Source of the DNA: Bartonella sp. TP
GTDB lineage: Bacteria > Pseudomonadota > Alphaproteobacteria > Rhizobiales > Rhizobiaceae
Length of the DNA stretch: 64,000 nt
Direction of reading: 5' to 3'
NCBI RefSeq assembly: GCF_030406085.1
Contig: NZ_CP129002.1
Location: 124,001 to 188,000, forward strand
Under the pieces are notes generated by a model. The model had not been told where the DNA came from. It worked only from the letters and a program-made list of their open reading frames with translations, and searched no databases. The position numbers and the translations under genes were made by a program. Below are positions 51,934-58,025 of this stretch, one piece after another; position 1 is the first letter of the stretch; every line of letters starts with the position of its first letter.

Positions 51934-52676
51934 TGAAAAAAAAATGCGCCTTAGTAATTGCTGGAACAGACCCAACTGGCGGCGCTGGCATAGTACGGGA
52001 CATAGCAGCATTAGAATTTTTTAAAGTAAAGTCAGCCATAGCCCTAACTGCTATTAACGTACAAGATAATTATAGCGTGCAACATATTGAACTAACCCAA
52101 CCAGATTTACTTTCTGCGCAAATCGATTGTGCTAGGCAGGCACAAAAGATAGCGGCTATAAAAATTGGCATGATCGGTTCTATAGAGAATGTTAAACTTA
52201 TCGAGCAAAAGATTCAAAACCTAACTATACCCATTGTGCTAGACCCTGTGATAAAATCTAGCTCTGGCTATATGTTAAGCCAACCAAATATGGTCAACTC
52301 GATAAGTCAGCTATTGCTAAACAAAATTAGTCTTTTAACACCTAATCTACCAGAGCTAAGCCTTTTCGTACAAGAAAAAGAAGCAACAACTATAGAACAA
52401 GCAATTATACAAGGCAAAAAATTAATGCAAACAACAAAGCTGAACGCACTATTGATAAAAGGTGGGCACGCTGCGTCTTGTGTTGAGGCTATTGATATTT
52501 TATTAACCCGAAATAACGCTCCGCGATATTTTAAGCAAAAATTTCTGCCTCAACAAATGCGCGGTACTGGCTGCGCCCTTTCCAGTGCAATTACTGCGTT
52601 ACTAGCCAAAGACTACGATTTGACACGCGCTGTAAAGCTAGCAAAAGGCTACGTCTATAAACTTATAAAAGACTAA
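51933..52676 (+). CDS. thiD: Hydroxymethylpyrimidine (phosphate) kinase
   Basis: ThiD phosphorylates HMP-phosphate to the pyrophosphate used by ThiE. The 247-residue ribokinase-fold protein has [17 protein letters not shown] near the start, [36 protein letters not shown] and the anion-hole/base motif [15 protein letters not shown] at 51933 overlaps the thiE stop (TAATG). It closes the operon and overlaps the convergent katE end by 4 bases. Confidence 0.94.
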
Positions 52677-54757
52677 GCTGCATCTATCCGTTGCCAAAAA
52701 CGTATGTCGCCACAGCTAGCAATAAATTTTTCAACATCTGCTGCATGATTTACTTCCATAAAGCCATCATCCATCCGCGCAGAAAGATCCAATTTGGCAA
52801 AAAATGGCTTAGATGCATCATTATAGCCAATGAATTTATAGTGGGCATATGCATCATTTATAAAATCACGAATCGCTGGCTTTTTTACCATCGCAGTAAT
52901 CTGGGGTTCCGCTATTAACAGCAAAATAGCGTCAAACAACACACTAGGTGCGCCATCTATCTGGTGATGTACGTTAACTTTTTTCCCATCTTTATCAACA
53001 ATACCGCCTACTTTCATAGCAATACGCTCAATATTAACTTCATGCTTTTTTGCAATATGTTCTATAGTTTGCAATAAACTGCTGTCTATAGCATCGCTTA
53101 ACAACACACCAATTTTTCGCCCCTTGAAAGCCTTCGGTCCATTTTTTAAAATACTCAATGCTGGTGAAGGCGGCAAATCGGTACGCGCAGGCACAGCAGT
53201 TTCAGCAGGCGCTGGCAAAGACTCAAGACCTATATTATCGGCTACGCTTTGCGCCAAACTGGTATCAATGTTAAGCAAATGCGCTATCATGGCACGACGA
53301 ATGTGCAAATGAGCACATTTTGATAATTCAAAACTCAACGCAGCGATAATATGTTTCTGCTCGATTTTAGTTTGACTAATATAAAATTGCCGTGCTTGCG
53401 AGTAATGATCGCCAAAACTAGGGCTACGCTCGCGAAGTTTTTTGCCTCCTATTTCTTGTGGAAAAGAATGATAACCTGCTTCTTTTTGTTCACGTGGGCC
53501 GCCATCTTTAGCGCCCCAACTATTTGGCTCGTAATTAGCCCGCCCTACAGGAGTGTGAAAGGCCATATGGCCATCTTGTTGAAAATGGTGAAAAGGACAT
53601 TTCGGGGCGTTGATAGGCAAATGAGTAAAATTTGGACTACCTAAACGTTTTATTTGTGTGTCCAAATAAGAAAAATTCCTACCCTGCAGTAAAGGATCGT
53701 CAGAAAAATCAATGCCAGGCACAATATTTTGCGTACAAAAAGCAACTTGTTCTGTTTCAGCAAAAAAATTATCTGGCATACGGTCTAACACCATACGCCC
53801 TATTATCTCAACCGGGCACAATTCTTCCGGTATAAGCTTCGTTGGGTCTAAAATATCAAACTCAAATTTTTTAGCCCATTCATCATCAAAAACCTGCACC
53901 CCTAGCTCCCATTCGGGATATTGTCCAGTTTTTATACTTTGCCATAAGTCACGGCGATGAAAATCAGGATCGGCACCATTAATTTTTACTGCTTCATTCC
54001 AAACAACAGATTGCATGCCTAATTTAGGCTTCCAATGAAATTTAACAAAACTAGATTTATTTTCAACATTGATAAAACGAAAACTATGCACGCCAAACCC
54101 TTCAATAAATCGTAAACTACGCGGTATAGCACGATCAGACATAATCCACATCACCATATGCATCGCTTCTGGCGTAAGAGAAATATAGTCCCAAAAATTA
54201 TCGTGAGCACTCTGGGCCTGAGGAAAATCACGGTCTGGAGCCGCTTTTACAGCATGTATAACGTCTGGAAATTTTATAGCATCTTGTATAAAAAACACTG
54301 GCATATTATTGCCGACAAGATCCCAGTTGCCCTCTTTAGTATAAAATTTCACCGCAAAGCCACGTACATCACGCGCTAAATCCATAGAGCCCTTATTACC
54401 AGCTACAGTAGAAATACGTGCAAAAACGGGGGTACGTTCACCAACAGTTTGAAACAGGGCGGCTTTTGTTAACTGAGAAATAGACTTTAACGTTTCAAAA
54501 TAACCGTGCGCTCCAACCCCCCTAGCATGAACAACCCGCTCTGGAATACGTTCATGGTCGAAATGAAAAAGCTTTTCACGAAAATGAAAATCTTCTAAAA
54601 GAGTGGGCCCACTAACACCAGCACGCAAACTATTTTGATTGTCTGAAACCGCAGCGCCCTGCGCTGTAGTTAGCCCAACAAAGCCATCGCCCGCTAGTTG
54701 ATGCAACTCGCCTGCTTTGCCTTTTTCTGTCTTGGGCTGCTTAATATCTTTGCTCAT
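52673..54757 (-). CDS. katE: Large-subunit catalase (HPII/KatE type)
   Basis: KatE breaks down hydrogen peroxide in the cytoplasm. The 694-residue protein is a clade-2 catalase: distal-His region [29 protein letters not shown], and the heme-ligand Tyr364 in [14 protein letters not shown], followed by a C-terminal flavodoxin/DJ-1-like domain ([17 protein letters not shown] to the end) that small catalases lack. A GGGGAGTGAG ribosome binding site directly precedes the ATG. It is divergent from the acyl-CoA dehydrogenase-like gene over 113 bases that contain two dyads. Confidence 0.95.
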
Positions 54758-54779
54758 CTCACTCCCCTTAAATAAATCC

Positions 54780-54795
54780 AGCTAATTTATTAGCT
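54780..54795. promoter_or_regulatory. Palindrome upstream of katE
   Basis: AGCTAAT at 54780-54786 and ATTAGCT at 54789-54795 form a 16-base palindrome with a 2-base centre. It lies 22 bases before the katE start codon, where a repressor or the -10 region would be. No known regulator is assigned. Confidence 0.45.
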
Positions 54796-54827
54796 AGGTC
54801 ACCAAAAAAACTTTTCAAAAACAAATA

Positions 54828-54854
54828 ACGAGTCTGTTTTAACAATTAACTCGT
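54828..54854. promoter_or_regulatory. Inverted repeat ACGAGT-N15-ACTCGT before the ACAD-like gene
   Basis: ACGAGT (54828-54833) and ACTCGT (54849-54854) are exact reverse complements, with centres 21 bases apart, about two helical turns. A possible -10, TATGTT, follows at 54857-54862. If that is used, the transcript starts at or next to the ATG at 54871. Confidence 0.4.
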
Positions 54855-54870
54855 CCTATGTTATTTTAGT

Positions 54871-55980
54871 ATGTTTGAACATTTAGCAAAGCCAATTTTT
54901 AAAAAATTAAAAAACGATTATAAAAATAGCGAAACAGCAGGTCTTGCTTATGCGTGCAGCTTAGCCAAGCAAGCGGGGTTATTTAAAGCATGTTTACCAA
55001 AAGCTTATGGAGGACAAGATTTAGCCTTAGCTAATAATGCCGACTATCAAAATGCTTTTGTTCATATGCGGGCCTTGGGCTATGCCAATCCTTCTTTTGG
55101 TCGTATTTTTGAAGGTCATTTTAACGCTGTGCAATTGATTGACTGCTATGCTAATCCAGAATTAAAACATAAAATTTTTACTGCCCTAGCAAATAATCAG
55201 CTTGTCGGAGTTTGGGCTACTAACGGCGACAAACCACTGCAAGCCCAGCAGCGAGGCCAAAGCCAATACATTCTTGATGGTAACAAAATTTATGCCTCTG
55301 GAGCAGATTTATTAGATTTTGCAATAATTACTATAGAAAAAACTAGCCAAACTGGCTTAATGTTAGCAATAATAGATGTAAAAAACAAGGCAAGAGCGCA
55401 GATTAAACATTGGCAAGCCAGCGGAATGCGCGCTACAGCCTCAGGCGAATATGACTTTAGCAATATAGTAATAAGCGAACAGGATTTTATAGGCGTAGCT
55501 GATGATTATTTTAAAGAGCCATATTTCGACGGCGGGGTTTGGCGTTATTGCGCTATACAATTAGGCTGTGCTGAAGCTATAATAAATGACTGGCAGATAA
55601 TGCTGCAGCAACGTAATAGAGTTAGGGACCCTATTCAAATCGCGCGTTTAGGCAAAGCAAAAATAGCAGCCCTATCTTGCGCAGCCAGCCTTTCTCAAGC
55701 CATAAGACAAATAGAGCAAAGCGCCAACCAAATTTCTGTAGAAACAACTAATCTAGGGGTCGCGGCTGCACTCAGCGCCCGCAAAATAACTGAAAATAGC
55801 TGTCTTTATATATTAAATCTTTGTGAAAAGGCTCTGGGAGTACAAGCTTTTTTAACCTCGTATGAAATTGAACAAAGACGCCGAGATCTAGGTTTGTTTC
55901 TACGCCAAGCCGCCCCAGATCAAAAATTACAAAAAGCAGCCGAGATTTTATTGCAAGCACCGGATTTATGGCTATGGTAA
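54871..55980 (+). CDS. Acyl-CoA dehydrogenase-like protein
   Basis: The 369-residue protein matches the acyl-CoA dehydrogenase superfamily: an N-terminal helical domain (LPKAYGGQDLALANNADYQ near residue 40), a middle beta-domain (QLVGVWATNGDK, YILDGNKIYASGAD, MRATASGEYDFSNIVI) and a C-terminal helical bundle (VWRYCAIQLGCAEAIIND). These enzymes are FAD-dependent; the usual end motif near the catalytic Glu (YxGTxEI type) is not seen, so substrate and even dehydrogenase activity are open. No ribosome binding site precedes the ATG. The PIG-L gene starts 13 bases inside its end, so they are coupled. Confidence 0.8.
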   Translation: MFEHLAKPIFKKLKNDYKNSETAGLAYACSLAKQAGLFKACLPKAYGGQDLALANNADYQNAFVHMRALGYANPSFGRIFEGHFNAVQLIDCYANPELKHKIFTALANNQLVGVWATNGDKPLQAQQRGQSQYILDGNKIYASGADLLDFAIITIEKTSQTGLMLAIIDVKNKARAQIKHWQASGMRATASGEYDFSNIVISEQDFIGVADDYFKEPYFDGGVWRYCAIQLGCAEAIINDWQIMLQQRNRVRDPIQIARLGKAKIAALSCAASLSQAIRQIEQSANQISVETTNLGVAAALSARKITENSCLYILNLCEKALGVQAFLTSYEIEQRRRDLGLFLRQAAPDQKLQKAAEILLQAPDLWLW

Positions 55981-56717
55981 CAGCATTTGCTAAAGGTACA
56001 TTATTAAAAATAGCCGCCGATAACATAAGCATAAGCAGCTTATCTGCCAATGGCCCCATAGTTGTTTTGGCGCCTCATCCAGATGACGAAGCCTTAGGCT
56101 GCGGAGCAGCTATAGCAGCAGCAAGCGATATGGCAACAGATATACATATAATATGCCTTACAGATGGCCGAGCCTCACACCAAAATTCCCGCGATTGGTT
56201 TCCACAAAGGCTAATTGACACACGCCGCAAAGAATTCATAAAATCCTGTGATATATTAACTAATGGCAAAGCAAAAACCTATTGGTTAAATTATATAGAT
56301 CAACACAGTCCAAATAACGGCAAAGAACAGCTAAAAGCTGCAGAAACTATAGCAACATTGCTAGCATATACAAATATAAAAGCAATATGGGCTAGTTGGC
56401 TTTTTGACCCACATATAGATCACAAAAATACAGCCAAAATCGCTTTATTATTGCAGCAACGTTACCTCAAAAATGCACAGCTTTATTTTTATTCTGTTTG
56501 GGGCCGTTTTATCAGGACAAAAGCTCTACAAAATTATAAGTGCTTTACTTTCGACCCCCAGCCCTATCTAGAGCGTAAAAAGGCAGCCAGTTTAGCACAT
56601 AGAACACAAATGACTGCTTTGATAAATGATGATCCTGACGGCTTTATCATGCAGCAAGAAACGCTTGAACATCTAATCCACAGCCCCGAGTATTTCCTGA
56701 GCCTTAAAATAATATAA
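55968..56717 (+). CDS. PIG-L (LmbE) family N-deacetylase
   Basis: The 249-residue protein has the PIG-L zinc motif APHPDDEALGCG (HPDD at residues 37-40) and the second histidine motif DPHIDH (147-152). Members remove N-acetyl groups from N-acetylglucosamine-containing lipids, mycothiol or bacillithiol precursors and antibiotics. It overlaps the ACAD-like gene and its stop codon shares a base with the methyltransferase ATG (TAATG). Two ATGs (55968, 55974) are possible starts. In other alphaproteobacteria I recall PIG-L and methyltransferase fused in one protein. Confidence 0.88.
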   Translation: MAMVTAFAKGTLLKIAADNISISSLSANGPIVVLAPHPDDEALGCGAAIAAASDMATDIHIICLTDGRASHQNSRDWFPQRLIDTRRKEFIKSCDILTNGKAKTYWLNYIDQHSPNNGKEQLKAAETIATLLAYTNIKAIWASWLFDPHIDHKNTAKIALLLQQRYLKNAQLYFYSVWGRFIRTKALQNYKCFTFDPQPYLERKKAASLAHRTQMTALINDDPDGFIMQQETLEHLIHSPEYFLSLKII

Positions 56718-57322
56718 TGAAAGACCGCTTTGACTTATTATATGAAAATAGCTTTGATCCGTGGGATTATTTGACTTCTCGCTATGAAGAAGAAAAATAT
56801 TTAACCAGTCTAAAAACGCTGCCAAAACAAAATTATAATCGCATATTAGAGCTAGGATGTTCAATTGGCGTTTTTACGGACAAACTCGCATCCATGGCAA
56901 AGTCTGTCTATGCTATAGACAGCTCCACACTAGCTCTAAAGCGCGCAAAGCATATTTGTAGCAAACATAATAATATCCACTTTATACAAACCAAAATCCC
57001 CTATAACATGCCCAAGCTATTATATAAAAAATTTGATTTAATAATTTTGTCAGAATTTCTATATTATCTAACGCCAGAAGAGTTACAAAAGCTTGCCTAT
57101 TTTATAGCACAATGTCTAACATCTTCTGCCCATTTATTATTAGTAAGCTATAGCTTGCCTATAGACGAGCAAATACAAGGCCCGCAAGCCGCAGAATATT
57201 TTTGCAGCTTTTTAGCCGCTACAAATAAAGTTAGCTTTAGACAAGAAATTTATAAACGAAAGAATTATCAAATAAATTTGCTAATTTGCAAAAAACTTTG
57301 CAAAAAACTGACTATATTGTAG
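56717..57322 (+). CDS. NodS-like SAM-dependent methyltransferase
   Basis: The 201-residue class I methyltransferase has motif I ILELGCSIGVFTDKL (residues 43-57), VYAIDSS as motif II, and FDLIILSEFLYYLTPEEL as motif IV. The N-terminal SFDPWDYLTSRYEEEKY and the EFLYYL motif resemble NodS, the N-methyltransferase of Nod factor synthesis. With a deacetylase gene immediately upstream, methylation of a freed amine is a reasonable guess. It is coupled to the PIG-L gene by a one-base overlap and followed after one base by the UDG-like gene. Confidence 0.85.
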   Translation: MKDRFDLLYENSFDPWDYLTSRYEEEKYLTSLKTLPKQNYNRILELGCSIGVFTDKLASMAKSVYAIDSSTLALKRAKHICSKHNNIHFIQTKIPYNMPKLLYKKFDLIILSEFLYYLTPEELQKLAYFIAQCLTSSAHLLLVSYSLPIDEQIQGPQAAEYFCSFLAATNKVSFRQEIYKRKNYQINLLICKKLCKKLTIL

Positions 57323-57323
57323 T

Positions 57324-58025
57324 ATGCTACGCATTATGGTTTTAGCCGCGCATAATAATTTTTCCTTTTCCGATATTGCTGAGATTTTTATCTTAGATAA
57401 TAATGACTATATAATCGCGCCTCTGCCACAGAATAGATTGCTAGCACCTACGGCTTCCCCAAAGCCTACTCCTATAATAGTAAAAAAGCCAAAAATAACC
57501 ACGCTCAGTGAATTGAAAAGGATAGTTGCTAGCTCAGAAGAGCTTAATTTAGAAAAAATTGCTAATAATTTATGTTTTTTCACTGCAATGCCTAAGCCGG
57601 CCCCCTGCGATATATTAATTTTTAGCGACTATCCAAACAGCACAGAAGATAAAACAGGCGAATTATTTACCGGGAAGCATAGCGAACTTTTGGATAAGAT
57701 GCTTGACACCGCTGGACTAAAAAATAAAAACATAGCTAAAGCAAATTTAGTTTTTTGGCATCCTTTAGGAGGGGCGGCGCCCTCTGCACAACAAATAAAA
57801 TTATGCTTACCTTTTGCAGAGCAACTCATTAATCTCTTGCAACCTAAAATATTATTGCTTTTAGGCAGCATAAGCTCTGCTTCATTAGCTAACGCGGCGA
57901 AAATGCATACAACAGCCAAAGTTATTACAAGCTACGATGTCAAAAATATTAATACTATAACGCCCAACATGGCCAAGCATTTATGGCAAGCCATATTAAA
58001 TATAAAAACCAGCTTAACAGAATAG
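57324..58025 (+). CDS. Diverged uracil-DNA-glycosylase-superfamily protein (family 4-like)
   Basis: The 233-residue protein keeps the frame of alphaproteobacterial family-4-like UDGs: a proline-rich N-terminal tail (~40-60), a core with GELFTGKHSELLDKMLDTAG, KANLVFWHPLGGAAPS, CLPFAEQLINLLQPKILLLLG and SISSASL. Key residues are missing: the GExPG-like loop reads FSDYPN, and the C-terminal HPxxLLR motif is replaced around TSYDV (residues 203-206). Only Cys84, Cys95 and Cys161 remain, so a [4Fe-4S] cluster with four Cys is not possible. It is probably not a normal glycosylase. Confidence 0.7.
   Translation: MLRIMVLAAHNNFSFSDIAEIFILDNNDYIIAPLPQNRLLAPTASPKPTPIIVKKPKITTLSELKRIVASSEELNLEKIANNLCFFTAMPKPAPCDILIFSDYPNSTEDKTGELFTGKHSELLDKMLDTAGLKNKNIAKANLVFWHPLGGAAPSAQQIKLCLPFAEQLINLLQPKILLLLGSISSASLANAAKMHTTAKVITSYDVKNINTITPNMAKHLWQAILNIKTSLTE

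Follow-up and report, generated by a model that had tools for sequence, protein, structure and literature searches.

In Nod factor synthesis, NodC, NodB and NodS follow a logic in which a family 2 glycosyltransferase (GT2) acts and an amino sugar is N-deacetylated and then N-methylated. The bacillithiol and mycothiol pathways combine a family 4 glycosyltransferase (GT4) with a PIG-L deacetylase in a redox context, and N-methyl-bacillithiol, a redox buffer made by BshA, BshB, BshC and the methyltransferase NmbA, adds an S-adenosylmethionine (SAM)-dependent N-methyltransferase (PMC12719100). Here we describe a locus that has elements in common with each of these systems. It lies in a 64,000-nucleotide stretch (the window; positions 124,001 to 188,000 of contig NZ_CP129002.1) of the complete, single-contig genome of Bartonella sp. 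TP (1,157,064 bases), where three consecutive genes, referred to as the trio, encode an acyl-CoA dehydrogenase (ACAD)-like flavoprotein, a PIG-L deacetylase and a NodS-like methyltransferase (MT), divergently from the catalase gene katE. On balance, and with modest confidence, we favour the view that the trio and a distant operon of four glycosyltransferases (GTs) form a seven-gene pathway for a modified aminosugar compound, which is made alongside KatE and is possibly stress-protective. A non-exhaustive literature search found no paper describing this cluster, and a description elsewhere is possible.

The locus shares with Nod factor synthesis the logic just outlined. It differs in using a PIG-L protein, which lies outside the NodB family, and in having, besides, an ACAD-fold flavoenzyme and as many as three additional GTs. 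A Nod factor proper is ruled out, as the genome has no match to NodA (PF02474) and the MT scores 59.5 against the NodS equivalog NF041650, well short of its cut-off of 300. GT2a, one of the two GT2 enzymes of the set, gives no chitin-synthase-specific match. An earlier annotation made from the DNA alone (the sequence-only reading) had likened the deacetylase and methyltransferase to NodB and NodS; taken as homology, that comparison is not supported, given the absent NodA, the deacetylase family and the missed equivalog cut-off. The bacillithiol and mycothiol pathways, for their part, have no GT2, GT28 or ACAD-fold enzyme, and their equivalog cut-offs are not reached here. Single enzymes of other systems also resemble members of the trio. 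The teicoplanin/A40926 and diacetylchitobiose deacetylases, which act on N-acylglucosamine groups in glycosides, have the PIG-L fold and zinc motif in common with the deacetylase described here, but are at best ~24% identical to it and occur in another gene context. The amino-sugar nitrososynthases KijD3 and DnmZ and the DszC/TdsC/MsuC group of flavin monooxygenases have the ACAD fold, and by their catalytic residues neither group consists of acyl-CoA dehydrogenases; their identity to the ACAD-like protein is 11-19%, and its gene has no nucleotide-sugar deoxyhexose pathway nearby.

A conserved gene trio and a distant glycosyltransferase operon

With E<1e-14 as the limit for a PIG-L match, nine relatives qualify; every one of them keeps the order ACAD-like, PIG-L, MT and has an adjacent GT2a, which excludes chance for the trio. 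The same order recurs in Alphaproteobacteria, Bacteroidota and a Nostoc, and a variant of it in Deinococcus. In an even sample of the class, comprising 385 genomes, six carry the ACAD-like protein (E<=1e-50), seven a strong PIG-L (E<=1e-49) and six both (hypergeometric P ~1.6e-12, or ~9e-11 without the Bartonella sp. TP genome); this ACAD search scored the top five candidates per genome, which makes 6/385 a lower bound. Weak-scoring PIG-Ls in the sample came with none of the partners. The co-occurrence of the three families across Alphaproteobacteria, put forward as a check by the sequence-only reading, is found. In a profile scan of 84,980 species genomes, the ACAD-like protein had at least 565 relatives, spread over several phyla, and the neighbourhoods of the best 80 loci were inspected.

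A profile of nine GT2a proteins has one match in the Bartonella sp. TP genome (E=1.9e-88; 947,011-948,003). It falls in the gene that heads an operon-like run of GT2a, GT4a, a GT28-like protein and GT2b, located ~763 kb away from the trio as measured along the contig; should the chromosome be circular, the path in the opposite direction is ~388 kb. That a glycosyltransferase partner would be found elsewhere in the genome had been anticipated; the earlier annotation had missed the three further GTs of the set, and katE as a recurrent neighbour. All four GTs have relatives directly beside the trio in Aurantimonas-type genomes, and a compact seven-gene cluster (GT4a, GT2a, GT28, ACAD, PIG-L, MT, GT2b) is present in sphingomonads and several Hyphomicrobiales, among them Stakelama flava, Novosphingobium, Sphingobium, Hansschlegelia, Methylobacterium WL119 and a Hyphomicrobiaceae metagenome-assembled genome (MAG). 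To the GT28 proteins of Stakelama, Novosphingobium, Hansschlegelia, WL119 and the Hyphomicrobiaceae MAG, that of Bartonella sp. TP is 40-44% identical. All seven genes are present in the Bartonella sp. TP genome, in two loci rather than one.

Another genome, G343, shows an independent split of the same set, at a different point, with GT2b, PIG-L, GT28, GT2a and GT4a at 174-181 kb and MT and ACAD at 458-460 kb. Two other genomes (G072 and G394) hold GT2a with the trio in one locus and GT4a, GT2b and GT28 in another. A single locus is therefore no requirement of the set. That the same genes have been split in two different ways argues strongly both for a single seven-gene pathway and for PIG-L acting on a GT product. 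The minimal module is GT2a plus the trio. Among 27 searched family members that lack the module, this GT28 was found in one (G005, 2.0 Mb), as an isolated gene (L141:11010-12092) that is ~44% identical over its best segment and has the rest of the pathway nowhere nearby.

Two further observations concern the glycosyltransferase loci. Directly upstream of the four-GT operon, on the same strand, is a tRNA-Leu (taa) gene (L028:14901-16294, equal to 946900-948293, covers this region); the longest GT2a open reading frame begins inside the tRNA, which makes the ATG at L028:16115 the probable start of the gene. Aureimonas-type clusters also include GT4b and GT2c, and between GT2b and GT4a a fused sucrose-phosphate synthase/phosphatase (SPS-SPP; L023:2132-4261, minus strand), of which the Bartonella sp. 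TP genome has no ortholog.

Table 1. Features of the trio locus (positions in the window) and of the distant operon (positions in the genome).
Feature	Positions	Strand	Size or remarks
ACAD-like flavoprotein	54871-55980	+	369 aa
PIG-L (LmbE-type) zinc de-N-acetylase	55968-56717	+	249 aa; PF02585
NodS-like SAM N-methyltransferase (MT)	56717-57322	+	201 aa; PF05401
UDG-like protein	57324-58025	+	233 aa
katE, long (HPII-type) catalase	52673-54757	-	PF00199 595 bits plus Catalase_C; divergent neighbour
Divergent intergenic region katE/trio	54758-54870		113 bp; presumed site of both promoters
GT2a	946,900-948,114	-	heads operon-like run
GT4 (GT4a)	945,812-946,894	-	
GT28-like	944,800-945,837	-	
GT2b	943,991-944,800	-	

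The positions of the open reading frames in the trio locus, the overlaps between them and their orientation away from katE all agree with the earlier annotation when compared with the list of open reading frames and the sequence (Table 1): ACAD and PIG-L overlap by 13 bases, PIG-L and MT by a single base, and one base separates MT from the gene for a uracil-DNA glycosylase (UDG)-like protein. The proposal that these four genes form one coupled cluster holds for the first three and not for the last. No UDG lies close to the module in any of the 80 named loci and UDG is present as an independent gene in 30 of 31 relatives, which rules it out as a fourth pathway member; the gene (UDG superfamily, 56 bits in Pfam) is an order-wide housekeeping gene outside the conserved unit. 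In this family-4 UDG-like protein, GEAPG is changed to SDYPN and PPGNR to PLGGA, and a similar change (SDYPK) occurs in a 1.4-Mb relative (G039, locus L146); from these residues, its glycosylase activity may be altered. The gap between katE and the trio contains a sigma-70-like site (54839-54867, 9/12), a kind of site whose count is not above that in shuffled sequence. G+C content is 33-40% in the trio and 39-40% in the distant operon, similar to the 39% of the window.

Catalytic elements of the three proteins

The deacetylase, the sole PIG-L in the Bartonella sp. TP genome, matches PF02585 at 80 bits against a cut-off of 28. Its zinc and catalytic motifs, P-H-x-D-D-E and H-x-D-H, are invariant in 41 sequences except at P38, where conservation is 90% or more. 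Its predicted fold (pLDDT 94) is nearest to diacetylchitobiose deacetylase, BshB, teicoplanin-type deacetylases and MshB. The MT scores 56.7 bits against PF05401 (NodS), for which the gathering cut-off is 24, and its profile matches PDB entry 4isc and the NodS structure 3ofj; DPW, YE..K and the G-C-x-x-G core of the SAM motif are invariant in 36 sequences. Judged by these motifs, both active sites are intact, and the loss of function that would have spoken against the sequence-only reading is not seen. PIG-L and MT form one fused open reading frame in four of the nine relatives, and also in Aureimonas and in Aequorivita (Bacteroidota). With the conserved order and the intact motifs, these fusions support the coupled deacetylation and N-methylation first proposed from the DNA.

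The ACAD-like protein is more divergent. Its Pfam ACAD domains score weakly (28, 24 and 17.5 bits), the N-terminal one alone above its cut-off, and its best NCBIfam models (SfnB/DszC) all fall far under theirs. By sequence comparison it is nearest to ACAD-fold flavin monooxygenases. The predicted model has a complete fold (pLDDT 93), and its nearest solved structures are the FMN monooxygenases DszC and TdsC (Z 38-39), followed by MsuC and the amino-sugar nitrososynthases KijD3 and DnmZ (Z ~37; range 36.7-38.9), with true dehydrogenases within ~2 Z units of these monooxygenases and the fold scores nearly tied. The motif EGHxNA is invariant in the family. The usual catalytic end motif, already reported missing by the earlier annotation, is indeed replaced, with RD....LRQ(A/P) in place of RD....IYEGT in 51/51 members and Ala or Pro at 347. 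Nor is there a Glu at 222-225, the alternative IVD/LCAD catalytic site, in these 51 members; the two catalytic Glu sites, matched by motif rather than by superposition, are presumably the equivalent ones. These residues support the conclusion that the ACAD-like protein is not an ordinary acyl-CoA dehydrogenase, and the predicted model is compatible with, if no proof of, an amine- or sugar-oxidising enzyme. The Deinococcus ACAD-like proteins (L120:7537-8799 and L133:8672-9931) carry an extra N-terminal domain of ~420 residues, which has no Pfam match in either protein and no PDB sequence match in that of L133.

Catalase, Ku and LigD genes near the module

In 9 of the 47 other genera sampled, a KatE gene lies no more than ~10 kb from the module, where ~0.2 would be expected from ~1.1-1.2 copies per 4.5 Mb; counting Bartonella sp. 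TP, the figure is 10 of 48. The survey took about one locus per genus, the expectation is a rough estimate and the genera are not independent. The arrangement varies. In N. resinovorum, N. sp. P6W and Sphingobium RAC03 the gene immediately before the seven-gene cluster, on its strand, encodes a catalase. Sulfitobacter, Pseudooceanicola and Paracoccus maritimus have a catalase gene immediately before or after the four-gene module, and in Aequorivita katE is divergent from the module, as in Bartonella sp. TP. On a tree of the trio, katE linkage changes ten times when loci cut by contig ends are counted as lacking it, and the window sits on a long branch that groups weakly with a set including the katE-adjacent Pseudooceanicola and Paracoccus maritimus. 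The position of katE beside the trio is thus probably not due to chance, and we regard the gene as associated with the pathway rather than as a biosynthetic step.

Other neighbours recur. Novosphingobium, Ancylobacter and Bradyrhizobium carry Ku or LigD genes by the module, one alphaproteobacterial MAG has LigD there, and many Methylobacterium loci have a LigD-like frame ahead of the ACAD gene. Together, the KatE, Ku and LigD neighbours suggest a stress-response context. A Crp/Fnr-type regulator is also recurrent near the module, in seven genera, and stands beside the catalase in sphingomonads (L041:15614-16453, L122:2531-3280).

A proposed aminosugar pathway and its alternatives

In the pathway that we propose, the four GTs would assemble a small glycoside, to which GT2a, whose linkage to the trio is the tightest of the four, would add an N-acetylhexosamine. 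PIG-L would take off the acetyl group and free an amine, which the NodS-like MT would then N-methylate. The ACAD-fold flavoenzyme would act as an oxidase or a monooxygenase, and not as an acyl-CoA dehydrogenase, on the amine or the carbon next to it, and the resulting modified aminosugar may help to protect the cell in stationary phase or under oxidative stress. With four GTs as partners of the trio, a sugar substrate has become much likelier than before. In outline, deacetylation and N-methylation with a GT partner are what the sequence-only reading had put forward; its inclusion of the UDG-like gene and its Nod factor parallel, as homology, are what has been given up.

Several points weigh against this proposal. 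The chemistry of every step is drawn by analogy. The ACAD-like family has Q-A or Q-P where enzymes of the DszC/MsuC type have His-Asp and may thus catalyse a different reaction, and the near tie with true dehydrogenases in fold scores bears on the same step. Many genomes carry GT2a and the trio alone, without GT28, and the four GTs are therefore not obligatory. Finally, the stress role is read from gene neighbourhood alone: the KatE expectation is approximate, as stated above, and most module loci have no KatE nearby.

The best-surviving alternative, which we nonetheless consider unlikely, is the decoration of an envelope glycolipid or lipo-oligosaccharide, in which the GTs would use an inner-leaflet lipid as their base and the trio would tailor an amino sugar. 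Several of the GTs belong to families like those of exopolysaccharide and lipopolysaccharide synthesis, envelopes often contain N-modified amino sugars, and the pathway is retained in a small, possibly host-associated genome. The inspected clusters showed no recognisable initiating phosphoglycosyltransferase, flippase or polymerase, however, and the module spans the very different envelopes of Alphaproteobacteria, Deinococcus, Nostoc and Bacteroidota.

The GT linkage might instead be incidental or later, with the trio tailoring a non-sugar amine or acyl compound. Most ACAD-fold enzymes act on acyl groups, and the set of PIG-L folds includes a non-sugar enzyme, the hydratase GalB (Z 21). We hold this improbable: GT2a adjoins the trio in most loci, the closest solved PIG-Ls are N-acetylglucosamine deacetylases, and where PIG-L is apart from ACAD and MT it sits with the four GTs. 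Least credible of all is a low-molecular-weight, thiol-like redox buffer made by bacillithiol or mycothiol logic from GT4, PIG-L and an N-methyltransferase: the GT4 and PIG-L pair recalls BshA/BshB and MshA/MshB, PIG-L is weakly like BshB2 and both the catalase link and N-methyl-bacillithiol offer parallels, yet BshC (PF10079) has no match in the genome, GT4 falls far under the BshA and MshA cut-offs, three extra GTs and the ACAD-fold enzyme are left unexplained, and N-methyl-bacillithiol is methylated on the cysteine amine rather than on a sugar amine (PMC12719100).

What the locus probably represents is a widely distributed, uncharacterised amino-sugar pathway, recurrently linked to catalase, that a very small genome keeps whole, in two pieces. 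The seven genes, with the fusions of PIG-L to MT and the two ways in which the set has been divided, outline a pathway that can be tested, and the linkage to KatE, Ku and LigD hints at where a phenotype may lie, namely in survival of peroxide, desiccation or radiation. Novosphingobium, Sphingobium and Paracoccus pantotrophus are tractable carriers, as is Deinococcus radiodurans, in which the gene order is a variant one and no GT2a was found nearby. A wider claim we advance tentatively, leaning somewhat against it: that this is an unnamed, phylum-crossing pathway for an N-methylated, flavin-oxidised aminosugar glycoside that acts in catalase- and Ku/LigD-linked stress survival. If this is true, Bartonella sp. 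TP would hold a stress-survival pathway valuable enough to be retained complete in 1.16 Mb of DNA.

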